Assembly: GCA_030447505.1 (NCBI GenBank)
Contig: JAUJOT010000005.1
Location: forward strand, 1-64,000
Length of the DNA: 64,000 nt
Source of the DNA: Solirubrobacteraceae bacterium
GTDB lineage: Bacteria; Actinomycetota; Thermoleophilia; Solirubrobacterales; Solirubrobacteraceae
Direction of reading: 5' to 3'
The notes below the pieces were generated by a model. That model worked only from the letters and a program-made list of their open reading frames with translations. It did no database searches and was not told the origin of the DNA. This document shows, piece after piece, positions 1,916 to 17,251 of this stretch (position 1 is the first letter of the stretch; every line of letters starts with the position of its first letter). A program made the translations under genes and the position numbers.

Positions 1916-2566
1916 ATGAAGCGCCTATTGATCGTCGCCGACCACTCGCTGGTCGCGCACTCCATCCGGCTCGCGCTCAAGCAGACCGTCGGCTTTCAGG
2001 TCGTCGGTGTGGTCGACGGCCGCGTCAGCGCGCGCGACGCGCTGCTGGACCTGCGCCCCGACGTCGTCCTGGTCGACGACATGAACGATCCGCGCGCGGA
2101 CGAGACGCGCGCTCCCGACCATGCGCTGGCCAGGCTGCGCGAGGCGACCGAGCATGCGGCCGCCGCCCGGCGACTGCTGCTGACGCTGCGGATGGACGAG
2201 GCCTGGATGAGCGAGGTCTTCGAGGCCGGCGGACACTGCGTGCTGTCGAAGGCGATGCACCCCGTCAGCCTCGGCACGATGCTGCGCGAGGTCGTCCGCG
2301 GCAACGTCGTGCACCGCTTCGAGCGCCGTCCGCCGGCGGCGATCGTCGACTGCCCGCTGACGCTGCGCGAGAAGGAGATCCTCGCGCTCGTCGCCGAGGG
2401 CGCGACGAACGGCCAGATCGCGAGGATGCTCTGGGTCACCGAGCAGACCGTGAAGTTCCACCTCTCCAACACGTACCGCAAGCTCGGCGTGGCCAACCGC
2501 ACCGAGGCCAGCCACTACGCGCACGTCAACAACCTCGTCACGGCGGCTGATGCAGTCGCCTGCTGA
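1916..2566 (+). CDS. NarL/FixJ-type response regulator
   Basis: The N-terminal receiver (RLLIVADHSLVAHSIRLAL, PDVVLVDDMND) keeps a plausible phospho-acceptor Asp near residue 54 and a lysine in the LSKAM segment, as in working receivers. A glutamate-rich linker leads to a LuxR HTH at about 145-205 (LTLREKEILALVAEGATNGQ, TEQTVKFHLSNTYRKLGV). The length (216 aa) is normal for NarL-type regulators. No histidine kinase lies next to it, so the partner kinase is elsewhere. Compared with the upstream paralogue at 1189-1878 this copy looks phosphorylatable. The HTHs of the two proteins are clearly related, so the pair may be an old duplication. Confidence 0.88.
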   Translation: MKRLLIVADHSLVAHSIRLALKQTVGFQVVGVVDGRVSARDALLDLRPDVVLVDDMNDPRADETRAPDHALARLREATEHAAAARRLLLTLRMDEAWMSEVFEAGGHCVLSKAMHPVSLGTMLREVVRGNVVHRFERRPPAAIVDCPLTLREKEILALVAEGATNGQIARMLWVTEQTVKFHLSNTYRKLGVANRTEASHYAHVNNLVTAADAVAC

Positions 2567-2633
2567 CAGATGCGCCAGCGCCGGCCAGGCCGCGGGGCCC
2601 GACACGAACATGCAAACCAGGGATAGCGAGCAG

Positions 2634-3317
2634 ATGGACCAGGTGAACCGCGAGTCACGGAGCCCGCTTCCGATGCCCGAGGCGGACACGCCCTGGGCCG
2701 GCGGGACCAAGGACCGGCTCGTGGCCAAGTCGAGCGTCGACACGTCGCCGGAGATCGAACGTCTCGTCAGCCGCGCCGTCGCGCGGGCGAAGCAGGGCGA
2801 TCGCGACGCCGTACGCTTCCTCTACCTGCGCTACGCCGACAACGTCTACGGCTACGTCCGCACGATCGTGGCCGATCACCACGACGCCGAGGACGTGACG
2901 CAGCAGGTGTTCGCAAAGCTGATCACGGCGATCTCGAAGTACGAGGAGCGCGCCGTCCCGTTCGTCGCCTGGCTGCTGCGGATGTCGCACAACGTCGCCG
3001 TCGACGCCGTTCGCGCCCGCCGCGCGATTCCCGCCGAGGAGATCGTCGGCGCAGGCGAAGCGGCCTGTCAGGACGCGCCCGAGCGCGCCCGGTCGCTGCA
3101 CGCGGCGTTCGCCGCGCTGCCCGAGGACCAGCGCCAGGTCGTCGTCCTGCGGCACGTGCTCGGGCTCTCGCCGGTCGAGATCGCCGAGCAGCTCGGCCGC
3201 ACGCACAGCTCCGTCCACGGTCTGCACCACCGCGGCCGCCGCGCGCTGTGCGCGGAGCTCGAGCGCTTGGACTCGGTGCCGTTCACGGCGCGCCGCAGGC
3301 TCGCCATGGCCGCATAG
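2634..3317 (+). CDS. Sigma-70 family (ECF-like) RNA polymerase sigma factor
   Basis: Residues about 50-125 match sigma region 2 (AVRFLYLRYADNVYGYV, DHHDAEDVTQQVFAKL, FVAWLLRMSHNVAVDAVRAR), which binds core polymerase and melts the -10. Residues about 155-210 match region 4 (LPEDQRQVVVLRHVLGLS, IAEQLGRTHSSVHGLHHRGR), which reads the -35. ATG 2634 follows a weak AGGGA; ATG 2610, or ATG 2550 overlapping the preceding stop, are alternative starts that only change an unconserved tail. No anti-sigma gene is adjacent. Linkage to two LuxR-type regulators suggests these regulators control its expression. Confidence 0.85.
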   Translation: MDQVNRESRSPLPMPEADTPWAGGTKDRLVAKSSVDTSPEIERLVSRAVARAKQGDRDAVRFLYLRYADNVYGYVRTIVADHHDAEDVTQQVFAKLITAISKYEERAVPFVAWLLRMSHNVAVDAVRARRAIPAEEIVGAGEAACQDAPERARSLHAAFAALPEDQRQVVVLRHVLGLSPVEIAEQLGRTHSSVHGLHHRGRRALCAELERLDSVPFTARRRLAMAA

Positions 3318-3375
3318 GCTGCAGCAACACGATCGTCTGATCGAGCACCGCGGTCACGACCGAGGAGCCGGCTCG

Positions 3376-4515
3376 TCAGCGGCGGTCGCGTGCTGCTGCA
3401 GCTCGACACGAGCGACGGCCCGCGCCGGCAGCGGAGGCACTGCGTTCTGATCCGCTCGCGCTCCGAACGCTGGGGATCAGCGAACGGACGCGCGCCTCGT
3501 GGACGGAGCGAAGGCCGTGGCGGGAGACGGATTGCCGCACGAACTCCAAGACCGCCGCTCCGCCGTCGAGGTTGGCCGTGTCCATGAAGCTCAGTGCGAA
3601 CAGGCCATGCCTGCGCAGCCGCCGAAGCGAGCGGTCGCTCAGGATCTTGCGTACGTCGGCGTCGAAGCTCGTCTGCGACCCGTCGTCGGGCTTGAGGTGA
3701 GCGAGCATGACGGGCCCGTACGCGCCCAGCGTGCGCGTCATCGCGCTGATGTCGGCCGAATTGCCCTTCGACTCCATCGCCTGGAAGCTCTGGAAGTCGG
3801 AGGCGCTCATGACGTCCGCAAAACGGCAGAACATCGACCGCCCTCCGCCGCGCGACGGATCGTCCCAGCGCGTCTGCCAGCCTCCCCAGCCCAGTGAGAC
3901 CTGGGCGTTCGGCGCGTGCCGGTGGAAGATCTTCAGCGTCGCGCGGTAGCGGTCCTTCAGCGCGCGGTAGTAGGCGCGGGTCGCACCGTCCGGTGCCCAG
4001 GCGTTGTCGCGGCAGGGGTAGGTCTGGAACTCGGTGAACAGCGTCACGTACAGCGGCGGCTCGGAGCTGTCGCCGGCGAACGTGCGGGCCAGCCGGCGCA
4101 TGTCGCCGAGGAACCTGTCGGCGAGCGGGTAGGGTCGCCCGCACGCCTGCCCGTAGCGGGTCTTCAACGGCACCTCCGGCCCGTCGCTGAACACGATGAG
4201 ATGCATCGCATAGCCGGCGCCGTAGGCGCGCGGGACCTCCGTCGTCCGCCACCTCGTCATCCATCCGAGATCGCCGGGCCCGTTGTACCAACTGGTCAGC
4301 ATGCGCACGCGGCTCTGCCGCACGAACTCGCTGCGTCGCGCGACGTCGGCTTCTGGGCCGAGGCCGAACAGCAGCTGCGCGCTCGCGGGAGCGGCGGCGT
4401 TCGCGTCCGACGGCGCCTGGCTGCTCACGCCCGCGAAGACGCCGCCCAGCGCACATGCGACCAGCACGCACGACAGCGCGGCCACGAGGAGGCTACTTGT
4501 AGTCGAGCGCGACAT
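3376..4515 (-). CDS. Secreted TIM-barrel-like (possible glycoside hydrolase) protein
   Basis: The first 40 residues form a signal peptide (LLVAALSCVLVACALGGVFA). The mature part has the spacing of a sugar-processing alpha/beta barrel: RVRMLTSWYNGPGDLGWM, YVTLFTEFQTYPC with a Glu that could be catalytic, QVSLGWGGWQTRWDDP, VMSASDFQSFQAMES and LFALSFMDTANLDG. I cannot name a GH family with confidence. The last 45 residues are low-complexity Arg/Ser/Ala. It lies 141 bp downstream of, and on the same strand as, the glycan-oxidase operon, so a role in trimming or releasing the same surface glycan is a reasonable inference. A GATAAT hexamer 8 nt before the ATG may be its own -10 box. Confidence 0.7.
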   Translation of the reverse strand: MSRSTTSSLLVAALSCVLVACALGGVFAGVSSQAPSDANAAAPASAQLLFGLGPEADVARRSEFVRQSRVRMLTSWYNGPGDLGWMTRWRTTEVPRAYGAGYAMHLIVFSDGPEVPLKTRYGQACGRPYPLADRFLGDMRRLARTFAGDSSEPPLYVTLFTEFQTYPCRDNAWAPDGATRAYYRALKDRYRATLKIFHRHAPNAQVSLGWGGWQTRWDDPSRGGGRSMFCRFADVMSASDFQSFQAMESKGNSADISAMTRTLGAYGPVMLAHLKPDDGSQTSFDADVRKILSDRSLRRLRRHGLFALSFMDTANLDGGAAVLEFVRQSVSRHGLRSVHEARVRSLIPSVRSASGSERSASAAGAGRRSCRAAAARDRR

Positions 4516-4656
4516 ACCCGGGCATTATCGACGAGTCGGCGCGAGATCTTGACCCGATCGCAGCCGCGAGACCTCGATCAGTCGCACGGAGCCGACGCGG
4601 CCACGCTGCCTCGCGCTACGGCCCGCGACGCGATCACGATCCGCACGCTCGCCCGC

Positions 4657-5214
4657 TCATCGAGAACGAGCTGAGCGCGAGCTGCCGGCGACGCCGGCAT
4701 CTCCGTACCCGCACGCCAGTCCGTCGCGGTTGGTGTCGAGCTTCAGCACGTCGCGCCCGGTGACCGCGATCCCCGCCGGGAACTGTCGGATCAGGTAGTC
4801 GCACGTCATCCGCGCGCCGCCCGGGCGCCGGGCGGCCACGCACTGCGACCCCGCCTGGCCGTAGCCCAGTGCGCAGCCGCTGGAGAGCACGCCCGTCGTC
4901 TTCGGGTCGGCGAGTTGCGAGGGCCGGCGCACCGATCGGCCCTTCACGCCGCGGGCGGGGCGGACGTTGCGCGTCCCGTTGCCGTGACGGCCGGCGGCGG
5001 CGGCGGCGAGGCTGGTCTGGCGCTGGACGGCCGGGTCGTGGCCGGAACGCGGCTCGCCGGCGGAGTTCTGCACCTGCGAGCGCAGTCGCTGCTCGTTGCT
5101 CGACAGGCCCATCAGCTGAGCGGCGGCGCCGCCGACCGCCACGCCGCCGAGCGCGAGGACGGCGACCACGACGAGCAGCGGGCGCAGCTTGCGTGACGTC
5201 AGACGGCGGCTCAT
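4657..5214 (-). CDS. Excalibur-like calcium-binding secreted protein
   Basis: An N-terminal hydrophobic segment (LLVVVAVLALGGVAVGGAAA) anchors or exports the protein. The C-terminal part contains a Cys-bounded motif with LDTNRDGLACGYG, like the DxDxDGxxCE loop of Excalibur domains, which bind calcium outside the cell. The start is set at ATG 5214 because it overlaps the stop of the upstream oxidase gene as ATGA, implying translational coupling; ATG 5229 would add five residues. It is the last gene of the overlapping glycan operon. The middle (about residues 35-130) is Gln/Arg/Ala-rich and probably disordered. Confidence 0.75.
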   Translation of the reverse strand: MSRRLTSRKLRPLLVVVAVLALGGVAVGGAAAQLMGLSSNEQRLRSQVQNSAGEPRSGHDPAVQRQTSLAAAAAGRHGNGTRNVRPARGVKGRSVRRPSQLADPKTTGVLSSGCALGYGQAGSQCVAARRPGGARMTCDYLIRQFPAGIAVTGRDVLKLDTNRDGLACGYGDAGVAGSSRSARSR

Positions 5215-7727
5215 CCGATCATCACCCATGCGGATGTCGACGGCACGCCATTGGAGTCGGTGATGTTGAGCATGTAGGGCCCCGGGGGCAGGAGGTTGCG
5301 GTTGGCGGGCACGCTCACCGTCGCCGTGTCGCCGGAGACGGCGATCGGGAGGTCGACGAGGCGCATGTTCGAATCCATCTGGTGCGTGACCGACATCGGC
5401 CGCATGAGCTGGGCCCAGCGGATCGTGCTGGCGCTCTGCACCTTGAAGCTCAGCTTGTCGCCGTAGGTCGCGCGGGTCGGGACCTCGCTGATCGTCGGAC
5501 GCGTTCCCTTGAACAGGTAGGGGGGCTCGTAGATCGAGACCCGCAGCTCGAAGCCGCCGCCGGCCGGGTTGGAGCCCATGACGGCCACGCGGCCGTCGGC
5601 GAGCAGGACTGCGGAGGAGTGGTAGTTGCGCCCGATCGGGTCGGCGGCGACGGACGTCCAGGCGTTGGCCTCAGGGCTGTAGATGGCCGCCGTCTTGACG
5701 TTCGTCGAGTCGTCGCGGTTGAGCCGCGCGCCGTTGGTCACGAGCACGGTGCGGTCGGGCAGGATCGTGCCGTTGAGGTACATCTTGCCGGCGCCCGGCA
5801 GGTCGGGCCCGGGCTGATAGGAGGGCGTGGGCTGCTTGAGGTCGATGATGTCCGTGAGTCCGTGGGCGAGGATGCCGCTGTCGATGTTGCCCCCGCCGGT
5901 GATCATCACCCGCTGGTCCTGGGCGGGCGGAAGCAGCACCGACGCCGCCTGATCGCGCATGTCCTTCGAGCGAAGGCCGGGGACATCGGCGATCGTGGCC
6001 TTGGACCAGTCGTAGATCGAGGCCCCGCTGCCCGGCAGCCCGTTTCCGAAGACATGGCCGCCGCTGTAGAACAGGCGCCCGTCGGACATGAGGTACATGT
6101 GCGGGTACAGGCCCCAGAACGACCATGACTGCGGGACCTGCGCGGTCGGCAGCCAGGTCCCCGTCGAGGAGGCCCAGTACTCGGTGTTGACCGCTCCGGT
6201 GGTGTCCTCCTTCAGGCCTCCGGTCATCAGCACGTCGCCGCCACCGAGCGCGACCAGCGTCGGGTACCAGTGGCCCTCGTTGGCATCGCCGACCTTCGTG
6301 AAGGTGTTCGCGTCGGGGTCGTAGATGAAGGAGTCCTTCAGGCCCCCGTAGTCGGCGCCGGTCGGCGACGACGGGTAGGACTTGGTACCGCCCTGGATCA
6401 GCACCCGCCCGTTGGGGAGCGTGACATGGCCGGCGCAGAACATGTCCTTCGGCACCGCGACGGTGCTGTAGGTCCCGGCCGCCGGGTCGCCGACCGAGGC
6501 CTCGAACGTCCCGGCAGCGAAGCGGTCGGCGTCGTTGCCCGAACCGGCCAGCATCAGCACCTTGCCGTTCTTGAGCACGGTGGAGTGGATCGAGCGGATC
6601 GGCATGTTCTGGTCGGTCACCGTCCAGCGCCCCGCGGCGGCAGGGTCGTCGGCGGGCGGCGGCGCTTGCTCGCCGACGAGGGTGGTCGAGTAGTCGTCGG
6701 TCACCAGCGTGCCGTCGGCGCCCAGCGACACGCCCCATGCGATCGCATCGACGCCGGCACCGATCGGCGGCGTGTCGACCGTCGCCTGCTGCCACGTGTC
6801 GCTCGCCGGCAGCGTCTGCAGGTCGGTCAGGTAGCTCCAGCCCGAGGCGGTGTGGACGAAGAGCGTGATCGCGTTCGCGGCCACCGTCGAGCGGTACCAG
6901 ACCGACAGCCGGTAGACCTGCCCGGGCTGGACGGCGGGCGACCGCGCCTCGGTCGGAAGCAGCTTGAAATCCCCCTGGGTGCGGCCGGCGAGCGTCAGCG
7001 AGTGCGCGCGTGTTCCGCCGTGCGCCGCGGAAGTGACTGCGCTCGTCACCTGGGCGTCGCCCCAGCCGGCGAGGAACCATCCGTCGGGAGGCGAGCCGCC
7101 CTGCTCGAGGCCGCCGTTGTACGTGAGCTCGGTCGAGGGCTGCGTCGGGGCGGGCTCCGTCGAGGCCATCGCGTAGTCGTCCGTCACGAGCGTCCCGTTG
7201 GCGGCGATCGAGACGCCGAACGAGATCTGGTCGGTGCCGTCGGGCACCGTCGGCGTCACGGCGCTCGCCGTCGTCCATGTTTCGGCCGCGGGCAGCGACT
7301 TCAGCTCCGTCCAATACGTCCAGCCCGCGGCGGAGTGACGAAAGACGGTGAGCGAGGCCGGCGTCGTCGATTTGTAGGCGACCGACAGCGCGTAGGTCGC
7401 GCCGGGCGTGACGGCCGGAGCACAGGTGCCGCTTTCGGTCATGATCAGCTTGCGGTCACCGCTGGCGTAGTTCGTGACCGTCAGCGACTGCGCCACCTGG
7501 CCGGAGGCGGCGTCGGTCGTGAGCGCCCAGGTCGCCGTGTTGTCGCCCCACCCGGCGCGCGAGAAGCAGTTCGGCTCGCCGTTGGTGACCTGCTCGAGGT
7601 CGCCGTTGACAACGCCCGCAGGCGCTGCGTCGGCGGAGGCGGGCATCGCGCACAGGAGGATCGCCGCGGCGAGGACGCCGGCGGCGCGCCAGACGCACCT
7701 GAGTCTGTCGGTTCGCAACACGATCAT
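5211..7727 (-). CDS. Secreted galactose-oxidase/GlxA-like copper radical oxidase with two N-terminal sugar-binding-like domains
   Basis: A signal peptide (to about residue 35) precedes two repeated beta-sandwich units (about 38-190 and 200-350; each with NGxLEQ, a WGD motif and LVTDDY), which resemble carbohydrate-binding modules. A kelch-type propeller follows (about 370-740), then the early-set DUF1929 domain (about 745-838). The mono-copper radical site seems complete: Cys431 in MFCAGHV and Tyr488 in HWYPT would form the thioether cofactor, and Tyr702-His703 (RNYHSSA) and His782 (VTHQMD) would bind copper. Enzymes of this family oxidise a primary alcohol to an aldehyde and make hydrogen peroxide. 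It sits between a GT39 gene and an Excalibur gene, with ATGA overlaps on both sides. Confidence 0.9.
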   Translation of the reverse strand: MIVLRTDRLRCVWRAAGVLAAAILLCAMPASADAAPAGVVNGDLEQVTNGEPNCFSRAGWGDNTATWALTTDAASGQVAQSLTVTNYASGDRKLIMTESGTCAPAVTPGATYALSVAYKSTTPASLTVFRHSAAGWTYWTELKSLPAAETWTTASAVTPTVPDGTDQISFGVSIAANGTLVTDDYAMASTEPAPTQPSTELTYNGGLEQGGSPPDGWFLAGWGDAQVTSAVTSAAHGGTRAHSLTLAGRTQGDFKLLPTEARSPAVQPGQVYRLSVWYRSTVAANAITLFVHTASGWSYLTDLQTLPASDTWQQATVDTPPIGAGVDAIAWGVSLGADGTLVTDDYSTTLVGEQAPPPADDPAAAGRWTVTDQNMPIRSIHSTVLKNGKVLMLAGSGNDADRFAAGTFEASVGDPAAGTYSTVAVPKDMFCAGHVTLPNGRVLIQGGTKSYPSSPTGADYGGLKDSFIYDPDANTFTKVGDANEGHWYPTLVALGGGDVLMTGGLKEDTTGAVNTEYWASSTGTWLPTAQVPQSWSFWGLYPHMYLMSDGRLFYSGGHVFGNGLPGSGASIYDWSKATIADVPGLRSKDMRDQAASVLLPPAQDQRVMITGGGNIDSGILAHGLTDIIDLKQPTPSYQPGPDLPGAGKMYLNGTILPDRTVLVTNGARLNRDDSTNVKTAAIYSPEANAWTSVAADPIGRNYHSSAVLLADGRVAVMGSNPAGGGFELRVSIYEPPYLFKGTRPTISEVPTRATYGDKLSFKVQSASTIRWAQLMRPMSVTHQMDSNMRLVDLPIAVSGDTATVSVPANRNLLPPGPYMLNITDSNGVPSTSAWVMIG

Positions 7728-9475
7728 GATGGGGGCTCCGGGCTGGGGATTGCGGGCGGCTGCGCGATCACGCGGCGGATCTCGAAGGTCTCGGTTCCGG
7801 CCTTGAAGTTCGCCACCGGCCGACTGTTCTCGAGCAGGGCGCGCGTGTGCGGAAGGTCGCGGGCGTTGCCCTCCATCAGGTTCGAGCGTACGACGTAGTC
7901 GATCGGTCCCGGCGCCCGCACGAGGCCGGGGTCGAGGTCGAGCTTGTAGAACCAGATCACGCGCTCGCGGCTGAAGCCGCGCTCGACCAGATCGAGCCAG
8001 ATCGTGTTGTCCACCACGATCGTGCTGCTCGCCGGGACGAAGCGGTCGAGCCAGTCGACGGCCTGACGCGCAGGCGCCGCCTCGTCGTCGCGCATCTGGC
8101 CGAGCGTCGCCGCGGCCCAGCGCGGCCCGATCAGCACGGCGAGCTGGATCAACAGCGCGACCAGCGCCAGCGCCGGCGCCGCGCGAAGCGCGCGCTGCAG
8201 CACGCCCTCACCGCCGCGCCGCGCCACCCCGCGCCAGCTCTCGTCCGCCAGTCCGGCCGCAAGCAGCGCGGCGAACGGGATCAGGGTGATGATGAACATC
8301 GCCGGGACATAGGCGCTGGGCCGCGCGGCGACGATCGCAGGCACGGTGATTGCGAGCGCGACCGCCCGCAGCCGCGGGATGAACAGCAGGGCGACGGGCG
8401 TGAAGAGGATCGCCGCCGACGGGAGCACGGGATCCTCGCGCAGCCACGTCGCGATCAGCTGGCGCGTACCGCTCTCGGGGTCGGCGAGCCCGCCGCCACC
8501 CGGGCGCGTCAGCTGGAAGCGGATCCCGTCGAAGAGGCTCGTGTGACCGGCGCCGGGCAACAGCTCGCCCTGGAGTGCCGCGAAGAGCGGGTAGAAGGCC
8601 GCGACGAGCGCGGAGCCGGCGAGCAGCACGCCGATGGCGAAGCCCCGCGTCGGGCCCTTCGCGGTCTGCCAGCCCAGAAGGACGAGCGCGGGCAGCGTCA
8701 GCAGCAACGTCTCCTTGGTGAGCACCGCCGCGGCGAAGCAGAGCCCTGCTGCCGCGAAGGCCGTGAGCCGGCGCTGGGGCGACAGGGCCAACGCGAACGC
8801 CGCCAGCAGCCAGGCCACGGCGATGTTGTCCAGCAGGACCATCCGGTGGTATTGGATCGCCAGCGGCGACAGGAGGAAGAGCGCGACGGCAAGGGCCGCG
8901 AACGCCCGGGAGATGTCGAGCCGCCGGGCGACGACGTACAGCAGCGCGCCGGAGACGAGCGTGAGCACGAGCATCAGGCTGCGCGCCTCGGCGATCGACC
9001 AGTCCGAGGAAAGCAGCGGGGCGGTCAGCAGCGACCAGCCCGCCATGATGAGCCAGCCGAGCGGCGGGTGGTCGTACCAGTAGGTGTACGGCGCGAGCTG
9101 ACCGAGCTGCGCGACCGCCCAGGACTGCGAGACGTAGGTGCCCTCGTCGTCGAAGAAGGCGGGGGAGGCGCCGAGGTTGATGCCGTTGACGATCCCGGCG
9201 ATGAGCAGGAGCGCTGCGACGATCGCGAGATCGAGCCGGACGTCGGCGGCCCGCGACGCCTCGTCTGCGACGCGTCTCGGGAGCGCCCGGCCGGCTCCTG
9301 CGCGACCCGCAGGCAGCGGCGTCGGGCCAAACGTCTGACCGAGCCCGGCGCGCGCGGCCGGCGCCGCGGGAGCGCCAGAACCGGCGGCGAGCACGCGCAG
9401 GGCGGCGGCGGAGACTGCGCGCCCGCCCTCGACGACGGCTTCGTCCGGCTGATCGCTAGAGATGGGCGCCGACAT
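7724..9475 (-). CDS. GT39-family membrane glycosyltransferase (PMT/ArnT-like)
   Basis: A cytoplasmic tail of about 75 residues precedes roughly ten hydrophobic segments and a C-terminal soluble region, as in dolichyl-phosphate-mannose:protein mannosyltransferases and ArnT. The first outer loop has the acidic motif FFDDEGTYV followed by YWYDHPPLGW, typical of the catalytic loop in this superfamily. It should transfer a sugar from a polyprenyl-phosphate donor to an acceptor outside the membrane. The donor may be made by the synthase domain of the upstream gene, which it overlaps by 20 bp. It overlaps the oxidase gene downstream by 4 bp (ATGA). The acceptor (protein, lipid or glycan) cannot be read from sequence. 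Confidence 0.85.
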   Translation of the reverse strand: MSAPISSDQPDEAVVEGGRAVSAAALRVLAAGSGAPAAPAARAGLGQTFGPTPLPAGRAGAGRALPRRVADEASRAADVRLDLAIVAALLLIAGIVNGINLGASPAFFDDEGTYVSQSWAVAQLGQLAPYTYWYDHPPLGWLIMAGWSLLTAPLLSSDWSIAEARSLMLVLTLVSGALLYVVARRLDISRAFAALAVALFLLSPLAIQYHRMVLLDNIAVAWLLAAFALALSPQRRLTAFAAAGLCFAAAVLTKETLLLTLPALVLLGWQTAKGPTRGFAIGVLLAGSALVAAFYPLFAALQGELLPGAGHTSLFDGIRFQLTRPGGGGLADPESGTRQLIATWLREDPVLPSAAILFTPVALLFIPRLRAVALAITVPAIVAARPSAYVPAMFIITLIPFAALLAAGLADESWRGVARRGGEGVLQRALRAAPALALVALLIQLAVLIGPRWAAATLGQMRDDEAAPARQAVDWLDRFVPASSTIVVDNTIWLDLVERGFSRERVIWFYKLDLDPGLVRAPGPIDYVVRSNLMEGNARDLPHTRALLENSRPVANFKAGTETFEIRRVIAQPPAIPSPEPPS

Positions 9476-11597
9476 GCGTCGTCTTCTCCCAGTTGTTGAT
9501 GCCGCGCAGCTCTCGCCAGGCGGCGCGCACGGCCGCCGCGGACAGCAGCAGCTGGTACGGCACGCTGCTCGCGAGCAGCCGCACGTAGTCCAACGGGCGC
9601 GCCCGCAGCGAGAACTCGCGGCAGAACTGCGCGAGCCCGACGAGCTCGGCGACGAGGATCAGCCCCATCGGTACGAGCGGCAGGAACGACAGCAGCGCCA
9701 GCAGGATCGGCACCTTGACGAGCAGCAGGATGGCGAAGGCCAGCGGGACGAGCAGTCCCATCAGCGCCTGGATCAGCGGAAACGACAGGGTGTACAGCGC
9801 CAGCGGCCGCGAGAAGCCCGAACCGCTCTTCCACTCGCCCTTGCGAAGGACCTGAAGGAAGCCCTGGTTCCATCGCGTGCGTTGCTTGAGGAGCTCGCCG
9901 AGCGTCTCCGGTGTCTCCTCGCGCGTGACGAGCTCAGAGCTGTAGGCGACGACCGTCCGCGCGCCGCGTGCGCTCAGCCGGACGCCGAGATCGCAGTCCT
10001 CGGCCAGGCAGTCGCCGTCCCACCCCTCGCAGGCCTCGAGCCACTCCGACCTGACGAAGACGGTGTTGCCGCCGAGCGGAATGAACCCCGACTTGGCGTG
10101 GAAGTGCAGACGGCTCTTGAACCAGAAGTAGTACTCGAGGACGTTACGCAGCGAGAACCAGCTCGTCTGGTAGTTCATGAGCTGCACGGCGCCCTGCACG
10201 ATGTCGGCGCCCGTCTGCTGCAGGCGGCAGTCGACGGCCATCAGCAGTCCGGGCGCCACCTGGTCCTCTGCGTCGAAGACACCCACGACGTCGCCGCTGC
10301 AGTACGGCAGCGCGGTATTGAGCGCCCGCGGCTTGCTCTTGACCTCGTTGCGGTCGACGACGATCTGGAAGCGCGAGTCGCCCTCTACGGCCTGGCGTGC
10401 CGCGAGCTCGGTTCCCGGGTCGTCGTGGCCGACCACGACCAGCACCTCGAAGTCCGGGTGCTCCTGCTCGGCCAGGGTCCGCAACGTGGCCGGCAGCACC
10501 TCCTCCTCATGCCGGGCGGGGAGGATCAGCGAGAACGAGTGGCGCGCGATGCGGTGGCCTTCCGGGTAACCGGTCTCGGCGAGGCTGTGGTCGTCGCGCC
10601 ACGCGTACAGCATCAGGCTGAGCGTGTAGAGGCTGACGACGAACATGAGCAGGAACAAGCTCGCCGCGGCGGAGTACGCGGCGGTCGCCGGCGACGCGAC
10701 GACCGCCAGCGTCGCCGCCGACGCGGCGACGGCCAAAACCGGCCAGCTGCGCGCGACGGAGCGCGTCAGGCGCATGCCCGCGCGTCGCGGGCTGGACAGG
10801 CTGCTCCTGCGCCGCGCCGCGCCCGTGCGGCGAGCGAGCAGGGGGGCGCCAGGCCGCTCGCGCCAGGCGCGCCAGCGCAGGCGGGGGACCATCAGCGCGG
10901 CCTCGCGGGCGATCGCGAGCGACATCTTCGAACTTCCGCGGCTGCGTTCGCGGAAGATGATCGGGATCTCGGTGACGCGCAGGCCGGCGCGCAGGGCCTT
11001 CCAGGTCGTCTCGATCTGGAAGCCGTAGCCCGTCGAGCTCGCGTCGCTGGTCGCGATGCGCCCCAGCGCGCCCGGCCCGAAGCACTTGAAGCCGCCGGTG
11101 AGATCGCGCTGGCGCACGCCGAGCACGTGCCGCGCATACCACGAGCCCCCGCGGCTGATGACGCGGCGCGACCATGGCCAGTCGACCACGCCGCCACCCT
11201 CGACGTAGCGCGAGCCCAGGACGAGGTCGGCTCCGGCGGTCGCCGCGAGCAGTCTGCCGATGTCGGCCGGGTCGTGTGAGAAGTCGCAGTCCATCTGCAC
11301 GACCGTCTCGATGCCGGGACGTGCGCCCGTCCACTCGAACGCCGCCTTGTAGGCCGCACCGAGGCCGTTCTTCTCGGAGCGGTGCAGGACCTCCACGCGC
11401 GGGTCGGCGTCGGCCAGGCGATCGGCGATCTCGCCGGTGCCGTCCGGCGAGTTGTCGTCGATCACGAGCACCAGCCCGGGCAGCTCGAGTCGGTCGAACT
11501 CGTCGAGCACCGCCATGACGAACGGCTCGATGTTCTCGGCTTCGTTGTAGGTGGGAACGCAGACGCAGAGCGTCGGCTGCTCGGAGCGCGTCGGCAT
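9456..11597 (-). CDS. Fused glycosyltransferase: polyprenyl-P-mannose-synthase-like GT2 plus CslA-like processive GT2
   Basis: Residues about 8-235 form a soluble GT2 domain of the dolichol-phosphate-mannose synthase type (VPTYNEAENI, DDNSPDGTGEIAD, QMDCDFSHDP, DLTGGFKCF). Two membrane segments (about 285-335) lead to a second GT2 domain (about 355-585) with FDAEDQ, a LAEDCDLG catalytic segment and QRTRW, the Q-x-x-R-W signature of processive synthases such as cellulose synthase-like CslA. Four or so C-terminal membrane helices follow. ATG 11597 is chosen because it shares one base with the stop of gtrA (TGATG). The fusion would put donor-lipid synthesis and glycan polymerisation in one polypeptide; the actual sugars are unknown. 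Confidence 0.88.
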   Translation of the reverse strand: MPTRSEQPTLCVCVPTYNEAENIEPFVMAVLDEFDRLELPGLVLVIDDNSPDGTGEIADRLADADPRVEVLHRSEKNGLGAAYKAAFEWTGARPGIETVVQMDCDFSHDPADIGRLLAATAGADLVLGSRYVEGGGVVDWPWSRRVISRGGSWYARHVLGVRQRDLTGGFKCFGPGALGRIATSDASSTGYGFQIETTWKALRAGLRVTEIPIIFRERSRGSSKMSLAIAREAALMVPRLRWRAWRERPGAPLLARRTGAARRRSSLSSPRRAGMRLTRSVARSWPVLAVAASAATLAVVASPATAAYSAAASLFLLMFVVSLYTLSLMLYAWRDDHSLAETGYPEGHRIARHSFSLILPARHEEEVLPATLRTLAEQEHPDFEVLVVVGHDDPGTELAARQAVEGDSRFQIVVDRNEVKSKPRALNTALPYCSGDVVGVFDAEDQVAPGLLMAVDCRLQQTGADIVQGAVQLMNYQTSWFSLRNVLEYYFWFKSRLHFHAKSGFIPLGGNTVFVRSEWLEACEGWDGDCLAEDCDLGVRLSARGARTVVAYSSELVTREETPETLGELLKQRTRWNQGFLQVLRKGEWKSGSGFSRPLALYTLSFPLIQALMGLLVPLAFAILLLVKVPILLALLSFLPLVPMGLILVAELVGLAQFCREFSLRARPLDYVRLLASSVPYQLLLSAAAVRAAWRELRGINNWEKTTHVGAHL

Positions 11598-12112
11598 CAG
11601 GTCCTGACGGCGAACGCCCACACGCGATTTCCCGCGAAGCTGGCCGGTGTCGCCGCTGCGATGGCGAGCGCCTGAGCTTCGATCTCACCGGCCCCGGCGG
11701 ACAGCAGGCCGCGCAGCACCAGGAGGTTGACGGCCAGCGCGGCCAGCGAGACGACGAGGAACCGCGCGCCCTGCGGCAGGTAGGCGACATCGCGCCGGTC
11801 AAAGGTCCAGACGCGGTGCAGCAGGTGGTTGTGGGTGACCGCGACGGAGAACGCGACGACCGCCGCGAGGTGCGGCGAGGCGGCGGCGGCGCCGATCAGT
11901 GCGGCGTAGACGGCGAGGTTCACGAATGTGCCCAGCAGCCCGACGACGCAGAACCTCGCCGCCTGAAGACGGGGCGGGGTGAGCGCGAGCGCTGCCGCCT
12001 CGGCGTTGATGATCTGCGGAAACCGCCGAAGGGCTGCCGCGCCGTCATCCGCCGGCGCCAGCAGCAGCCCTGGATCATCTTGCTGACGCCCCTGGACAAG
12101 CATGAGCGGCAT
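11597..12112 (-). CDS. GtrA-family membrane protein
   Basis: Four predicted membrane helices with the GtrA signatures (ARFCVVGLLGTFVNLAVY, FSVAVTHNHLLHRVWTF, RFLVVSLAALAVNLLVL, ASFAGNRVWAF). GtrA proteins are thought to flip or present polyprenyl-phosphate-linked sugars, and they commonly neighbour DPM-synthase-like GT2 genes, as here. The start is uncertain: ATG 12112, ATG 12103 and a longer form from 12172 are all in frame and none has a strong ribosome-binding site; the conserved part begins about 40 residues in. It is the first gene of the overlapping glycan operon. Confidence 0.82.
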   Translation of the reverse strand: MPLMLVQGRQQDDPGLLLAPADDGAAALRRFPQIINAEAAALALTPPRLQAARFCVVGLLGTFVNLAVYAALIGAAAASPHLAAVVAFSVAVTHNHLLHRVWTFDRRDVAYLPQGARFLVVSLAALAVNLLVLRGLLSAGAGEIEAQALAIAAATPASFAGNRVWAFAVRT

Positions 12113-15996: not shown

Positions 15997-16061
15997 GCTT
16001 CGTAGTCTGAACCGGCGTGAGCGATCTCGCACAGAGACGCGAACGAATGGGGGACCACCAG

Positions 16062-16132
16062 AGGCGCCGTCCGGACTCGAACCGGAGTAAACGGCTTTGC
16101 AGGCCGCTGCGTAGCCACTCCGCCACGGCGCC
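16062..16132 (-). tRNA. tRNA-Cys (GCA)
   Basis: Minus-strand cloverleaf of 71 nt: acceptor GGCGCCG pairs with CGGCGCC, the anticodon loop CTGCAAA gives anticodon GCA, and the T loop is TTCGAGT. CCA is not encoded. The discriminator base is U, as is usual for tRNA-Cys. Confidence 0.95.
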
Positions 16133-17176: not shown

Positions 17177-17249
17177 GGGCGATTAGCTCAGCTGGGAGAG
17201 CGCCGCCTCGACAAGGCGGAGGTCACTGGTTCGAGCCCAGTATCGCCCA
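17177..17249 (+). tRNA. tRNA-Val (GAC)
   Basis: A 73-nt cloverleaf: acceptor GGGCGAT pairs with ATCGCCC, D arm GCTC/GAGC, anticodon stem CCGCC/GGCGG around TCGACAA (anticodon GAC), T loop TTCGAGC. CCA is not encoded. Its 3' 22 bases plus two flanking bases recur at 18730-18753, marking it as the attachment site of an integrated element. Confidence 0.97.
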
Positions 17250-17251
17250 CT
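17228..17251. repeat. Attachment-site direct repeat, left copy (tRNA-Val 3' end)
   Basis: A 24-bp block covering the T arm and 3' acceptor strand of tRNA-Val is repeated without mismatch at 18730-18753 in the same orientation. Integrases of tRNA-targeting elements leave this arrangement, with an intact tRNA at one side and a displaced 3' fragment at the other. Confidence 0.85.

Follow-up and report, generated by a model that had tools for sequence, protein, structure and literature searches.

What might a bacterium make with a predicted copper radical oxidase that is encoded in one overlapping gene array with enzymes of glycan synthesis and membrane glycosylation? This question is raised by a stretch of 64,000 nucleotides from a Solirubrobacteraceae bacterium (contig JAUJOT010000005.1, positions 1 to 64,000; hereafter, the window), in which five overlapping minus-strand genes, from 12112 to 4657, encode a GtrA protein, a fusion of two family 2 glycosyltransferase (GT2) domains, a GT-C type glycosyltransferase, a secreted oxidase-like protein and an Excalibur-like protein. 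The first domain of the fusion resembles DPM synthase (DPMS), and the second, denoted CSL below, is a GT2 domain with the QxxRW motif. An earlier, sequence-only reading took this locus for an elaborated version of the pair formed by the synthase CslA and the oxidase GlxA in Streptomyces. The part of that reading in which the five genes belong to one functional unit is borne out, because the same modules recur, with reshuffled fusions, in dozens of genomes, which is not expected of chance neighbours. Descent from the CslA-GlxA pair is not: CSL is another GT2 family, and the oxidase belongs to a sister clade of GlxA that lacks domain 2. It appears rather probable that the unit is a cell-surface system in which a glycan is synthesized, decorated and oxidized. 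No description of this locus was found in the open-access literature searched; extra cslA-glxA copies were reported in 2013 in three Streptomyces species (PMC3543389), and the present locus may or may not be among them.

Recurrence of the locus across actinobacteria

The names of genera and families among the searched genomes are inferred, with family f30 corresponding to Streptomycetaceae and f97 to another actinobacterial family; the frames at related loci were read from stop to stop, with start sites untested, so that the exact protein ends are uncertain. A search of the phylum yielded seven genomes, all from one genus of f30, that carry a second oxidase, 54-55% identical to that of the window, in loci that also encode CSL, GT-C and DPMS-GtrA, with the oxidase itself bearing a C-terminal Excalibur-like module. 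The genus is taken to be Streptomyces because one of its genomes holds a GlxA equivalog at 1144 bits, and in the Streptomyces genomes the GlxA-type oxidase and the operon oxidase are encoded at separate places.

As these seven loci were identified by way of the oxidase, they give no estimate of its frequency beside CSL. Searched for directly, CSL is present (E <= 1e-60) in 78 of the 298 sampled Streptomycetaceae genomes and in 40 of the 395 genomes of the class. The 36 loci picked by CSL, which were chosen by hand for diversity rather than at random, include 20 divergent ones from the Streptomycetaceae search, 15 that come mostly from the class search, and L180, from a class-level search around the window. 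GT-C is found within the locus in 35 of the 36, the exception (L278) being a second CSL copy that is 38% identical, and shares the locus with CSL in 43 of the 44 loci overall. The operon oxidase is present in 17 of the 36 (13 of the 20 Streptomycetaceae loci and 4 of the 15 in the other set, namely, L275-L277 and L279, with only a weak fragment in L274 and none in L180), which is a lower bound because some contigs, for example, that of L248, end inside the locus.

Across these loci, the modules recur and the fusion partners vary, which is what came of the co-occurrence search that the sequence-only reading had proposed. The fusion partner of DPMS is CSL in the window and GtrA in Streptomyces; CSL, DPMS and GtrA, with a low-complexity linker, share one frame in L248; CSL and GT-C form a single frame of 1303 residues in L180, which comes from the window's own family; and the oxidase is fused to the Excalibur-like module in most Streptomycetaceae loci, with L245 and L253 resembling the window in that the oxidase is followed immediately by a separate gene for the module. 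The DPMS-CSL fusion is a lineage-specific or local variant, not a defining feature. Next to the CSL-GT-C fusion of L180, positions 2423-6277 encode an epimerase, a radical SAM/SPASM protein and another GT2.

A chance neighbourhood seemed possible from the window's order alone. Among 20 oxidase neighbourhoods from this order (18 from other genomes and two paralogous loci from the same genome, one of the 20 giving no oxidase match on re-scan), none had CSL, GT-C or GtrA alongside, apart from one weak GT2, and a close CSL was not found in any other genome of the window's genus. When contigs were scanned with the complete fusion, matches to its DPMS half predominated, with no fusion among the matches listed, and nothing close to the oxidase or to CSL turned up in the plasmid searches. 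It was the phylum search, with the recurrence of reshuffled fusions, that ruled chance out.

The operon oxidase and GlxA

The oxidase comprises a signal peptide, two CBM_4_9-like domains (approximately residues 35-355) and a kelch propeller followed by a GO-like early set domain (approximately 360-838), the latter scoring 82.7 bits against the Pfam cut-off of 25. The nearest solved structure is that of Streptomyces GlxA (PDB 4unm; E 5e-93). Within this kelch and early set context, the protein has the Cys, the cross-linking Tyr, the axial Tyr and the two His that characterize AA5 enzymes: the five copper-radical residues proposed originally, along with the Trp preceding the first Tyr (Cys431, Trp487, Tyr488, Tyr702, His703, His782), align with those of 4unm and are invariant in 21 of the 21 operon oxidases aligned. 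The protein is probably an AA5-type copper radical oxidase, for which copper binding, a Tyr-Cys cross-link and peroxide production are predicted. A single-sequence structure model has a pLDDT of 39.5, too low for overlay on 4unm.

Against the GlxA equivalog model NF052501 (NCBIfam; cut-off 800 bits), the window oxidase (P0002) scores 428.5 bits and a Streptomyces operon oxidase 404 bits, compared with 1144 bits for the true Streptomyces GlxA. Domain 2 of GlxA, an insert in the propeller (residues 143-260), corresponds to 7 residues in the window oxidase versus 118 in GlxA, and across 20 operon oxidases this region spans 5-7 residues versus 115-119 in the GlxA types. Maximum-likelihood analysis places the operon oxidases in a single clade (92/98), adjoining yet separate from the GlxA clade, with the window oxidase as the deepest branch. 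By alignment and phylogeny, the operon oxidase is a sister clade to GlxA, not GlxA itself.

The accessory modules fared less evenly. The two carbohydrate-binding-like domains proposed for the oxidase are homologous to modules at related loci, but their CBM_4_9 match is below the Pfam cut-off (22.2 versus 25.9 bits). Likewise, the Excalibur-like protein (P0001) is homologous to the C-terminal module of Streptomycetaceae operon oxidases (for example, L212, E 1e-5) and contains a DxNxDGxxC motif, seen by eye, but the Excalibur domain of Pfam has no match in P0001 and scores only 17.3 and 11.1 bits in its homologues from L245 and L253, versus the cut-off of 22. With the window and Streptomyces proteins as queries, the module is detected at related loci with 47-131 bits.

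A gene on Arthrobacter plasmid NZ_CP110116.1 (9427-10386), annotated as polysaccharide deacetylase, also matches the N-terminal domains of the oxidase (37%), so that the domain is common to other glycan enzymes. At L227 (1355-10224), a DPMS-like GT2 is encoded near a protein that combines a glucose/sorbosone dehydrogenase domain with two copies of this N-terminal domain. The genome of the window has two more genes for copper radical oxidase-like proteins, L134 (G000:C7:599719-601104) and L138 (G000:C4:17536-19044), which keep all six residues, fall in a clade different from those of the operon oxidase and GlxA, and have no CSL or GT-C alongside. GlxA-type oxidases with the domain 2 insert are found in other genomes of the window's order, outside Streptomyces (L123-L126); the 2013 paper reported actinobacterial orthologs only in Streptomyces and Frankia (PMC3543389).

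The probable membrane glycosylation enzymes

CSL (residues ~320-721 of the fusion) is a QxxRW GT2 domain between predicted flanking membrane helices. At the level of motifs, the CSL of the window has DAED, AED (the T of TED being replaced by A) and QRTRW, and DAED (DAES in f97), ED and QRTRW are aligned across the family. The best NCBIfam model for CSL is PgaC/IcaA, at 98 bits and under the cut-off of 422; the CelA model gives 47.6 bits, with a cut-off of 699. The identity to CslA from a GlxA locus (L220) is 27% over 107 amino acids, and in the tree, 39 CSL sequences form one clade (98/98) that is separate from the three GT2 proteins used as outgroup; the branch of CslA is very long. Identification of CSL as CslA is ruled out by these scores and this topology; by the same comparisons, CSL is a GT2 family different from CslA. 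When the presence of the oxidase is mapped on the CSL tree, four changes are required, so that the history of oxidase gain and loss is not resolved by this tree.

The DPM-synthase-like part of the fusion (residues ~18-250) matches the Pyrococcus enzyme PfDPMS (5mlz) over residues 18-241 with E 4e-25. The GtrA protein matches PF04138 with 83 bits (E 2e-23, above the Pfam cut-off), is homologous to the GtrA domains fused to DPMS at related loci, and is a putative flippase or DPMS membrane domain. The GT-C enzyme, with about 9 or more predicted membrane helices, matches PF02366 (PMT) with 35.5 bits versus a cut-off of 22.7; as to its assignment to GT39 or to the GT83/ArnT type, PF02366 is above the cut-off, yet PMT_2 and a weak ArnT match also occur in the same family. 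A GT-A polyprenyl-phosphate GT2, GtrA and GT-C, the components by which transmembrane glycosylation systems are recognized, are found here together at one locus. Synthesis of a lipid-linked donor, flipping and transfer by GT-C, as in the standard three-component system, is a plausible course of events.

A possible pathway and its alternatives

A combination of GT-A synthase, GtrA and GT-C is an established architecture by which polymers outside the membrane receive sugars (PMC13390465), and a GlxA-related precedent exists for a copper radical oxidase that works in complex with a GT2 glycan synthase, supporting synthesis of the CslA glycan (PMC11022532). Combining the two, we suggest that CSL makes the glycan, the three-component unit decorates it and the oxidase oxidizes it. 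Under this scheme, CSL, as a PgaC/IcaA-like GT2, would make the glycan and pass it through the membrane; the DPMS-like domain would charge polyprenyl phosphate with a sugar; GtrA would move or anchor this lipid-linked donor; and GT-C would add that sugar to the CSL glycan on the extracellular side. The CBM-like domains would keep the oxidase on the glycan, and the Excalibur-like module would keep it at the surface. The oxidase would convert a primary alcohol of the glycan into an aldehyde and release hydrogen peroxide, and this oxidation might stiffen or cross-link the glycan. The gene content, the catalytic motifs, the conserved co-occurrence and the four types of fusion (CSL with DPMS, CSL with GT-C, DPMS with GtrA, oxidase with the Excalibur-like module) are observed directly; the sugars, the acceptor, the directions of the steps, the anchoring and the cross-linking are inferred. 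The scheme draws support from the reshuffled recurrence of the modules in both Streptomycetaceae and f97, from the counts of GT-C and oxidase in loci not chosen by oxidase, from the conserved copper residues and the two well-defined clades, from the fusions in L180, L248 and Streptomyces, and from the two precedents. Several points weigh against it: the oxidase is missing beside 19 of the 36 CSL loci and so is an optional part; the activity and processivity of CSL are predicted from motifs, and QxxRW is also found in GT2 enzymes that add few sugars; the acceptor of GT-C could instead be a protein or a lipid; and the action of the oxidase on the CSL glycan is a proposal.

The alternative that survives best, although unlikely, is that DPMS, GtrA and GT-C form a protein O-glycosylation unit for the oxidase or wall proteins and CSL makes an unrelated glycolipid or short oligosaccharide, the genes being co-regulated with no common substrate. 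PF02366 is, after all, the protein O-mannosyltransferase family, DPMS supplies such enzymes, and the NCBIfam matches of CSL include models of non-polymerizing GT2 enzymes, such as HpnI. However, the near-constant co-occurrence of GT-C with CSL, oxidase-free loci included, and their fusion in L180 argue that GT-C is coupled to CSL rather than to a protein target; this fusion also gives the best hint that GT-C uses the product of CSL as its acceptor.

It is quite improbable that the oxidase, rather than modifying a glycan, serves to generate peroxide from small, diffusible alcohols or aldehydes, in defence or wall redox processes, and is encoded beside glycan genes for surface retention. GlxA itself is most active on glycolaldehyde and weak on substrates that fungal galactose oxidase converts readily (PMC4736821), and the only function of the CBM-like and Excalibur-like modules could be retention; nevertheless, the close linkage of the oxidase with one and the same set of glycan genes in two families, together with the GlxA precedent, speaks for a role in glycan building. 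That the locus is a true CslA-GlxA system for a cellulose-type tip glycan, with added genes, is hardly credible. Here, too, a QxxRW GT2 is paired with a copper radical oxidase, and GlxA is the nearest solved homologue of this oxidase, but against the reading stand the distance between CSL and CslA, the low equivalog score and missing domain 2 of the oxidase, and the separate places of the two oxidase types in Streptomyces.

Relation to known systems

The locus shares with the cellulose synthase complex CslA-GlxA (Streptomyces SCO2836-SCO2837) a QxxRW GT2 beside a copper radical oxidase and the same six residues in the active site, among them the Trp-Tyr pair. It differs, apart from the GT2 family and domain 2, in the cleavable-type signal peptide (judged by eye) and the CBM-like domains of the oxidase, in the Excalibur-like module, and in the addition of DPMS, GtrA and GT-C; no endoglucanase (CslZ) gene was recognized. 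All three parts of the three-component transmembrane glycosylation systems are present and conserved, with DPMS and GtrA often fused, but here they are coupled to a polymerase-like GT2, once fused to GT-C, and often to a copper radical oxidase. The poly-N-acetylglucosamine synthases PgaC/IcaA are the nearest named GT2 model and have the same motif plan, yet CSL scores far under their cut-off, and no PgaB/IcaB deacetylase was recognized in the locus. With galactose oxidase and other AA5 enzymes, the oxidase shares the kelch propeller, the early set domain, the Cys-Tyr pair, the second Tyr and two His; unlike Fusarium galactose oxidase, to which the match is only about E 1e-22, it has Trp before the cross-linking Tyr, as in GlxA. 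In the gsf cluster of Actinoplanes, GtrA is present and the oxidase is absent.

Work on copper radical oxidases in actinobacterial glycan building has centred on GlxA; here, a second oxidase clade is tied to different glycan machinery. More tentatively, these loci may represent an actinobacterial system, widespread and as yet undescribed, that uses a polymerase-like GT2 together with a decorating transmembrane transferase to produce a branched surface glycan, which a dedicated, non-GlxA oxidase then oxidizes in place to aldehydes. If so, this would be a new bacterial surface glycan, and the culturable Streptomyces would offer a test of why copper radical oxidases repeatedly pair with GT2 glycan synthases.

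Gene layout and neighbouring genes

All five genes are present where the sequence-only reading placed them (Table 1). They all overlap, as it stated, but by 1-25 nt rather than 1-20 bp: between GtrA and the fusion, the overlap is 25 nt if translation begins at the listed GTG and shrinks to a 1-nt TGATG junction if it begins at Met9, and the following overlaps are 20 nt (fusion/transferase), 4 nt (ATGA; transferase/oxidase) and 19 nt (oxidase/Excalibur-like). The two GT2 domains do lie in one polypeptide: G+C content at third codon positions is 0.85-0.97 across all 60-codon blocks of the fusion, linker included, so that a single coding frame is well supported.

Table 1. Genes of the five-gene unit and the gene downstream of it
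Feature	Coordinates	Strand	Basis and remarks
GtrA family small membrane protein	11597..12112	minus	PF04138; start is Met21 of a longer open reading frame
GT2-GT2 fusion, 721 aa	9456..11621	minus	PF00535 + PF13641, both GT2 domains above the Pfam cut-offs
PMT/ArnT-type GT-C glycosyltransferase, 583 aa	7724..9475	minus	PF02366; hydropathy
Secreted copper-radical-oxidase-like protein (P0002), 838 aa	5211..7727	minus	GO-like_E_set; GlxA 4unm match
Excalibur-like protein (P0001), 190 aa, secreted or membrane-anchored	4657..5229	minus	C-terminal LDTNRDGLACG; homology to Streptomycetaceae modules
Secreted protein (P0006), 379 aa, family unassigned	3376..4515	minus	141 bp downstream of the five-gene unit

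The downstream protein P0006 matched no Pfam or NCBIfam family, had no counterpart in the seven Streptomyces loci compared, and is probably outside the conserved unit. Its single-sequence structure model has a pLDDT of 38.5, and motifs resembling those of TIM-barrel hydrolases can be discerned by eye. A few kilobases upstream of the operon, the window encodes tRNA-Cys (16061-16132, minus strand) and tRNA-Val (17177-17250, plus strand).

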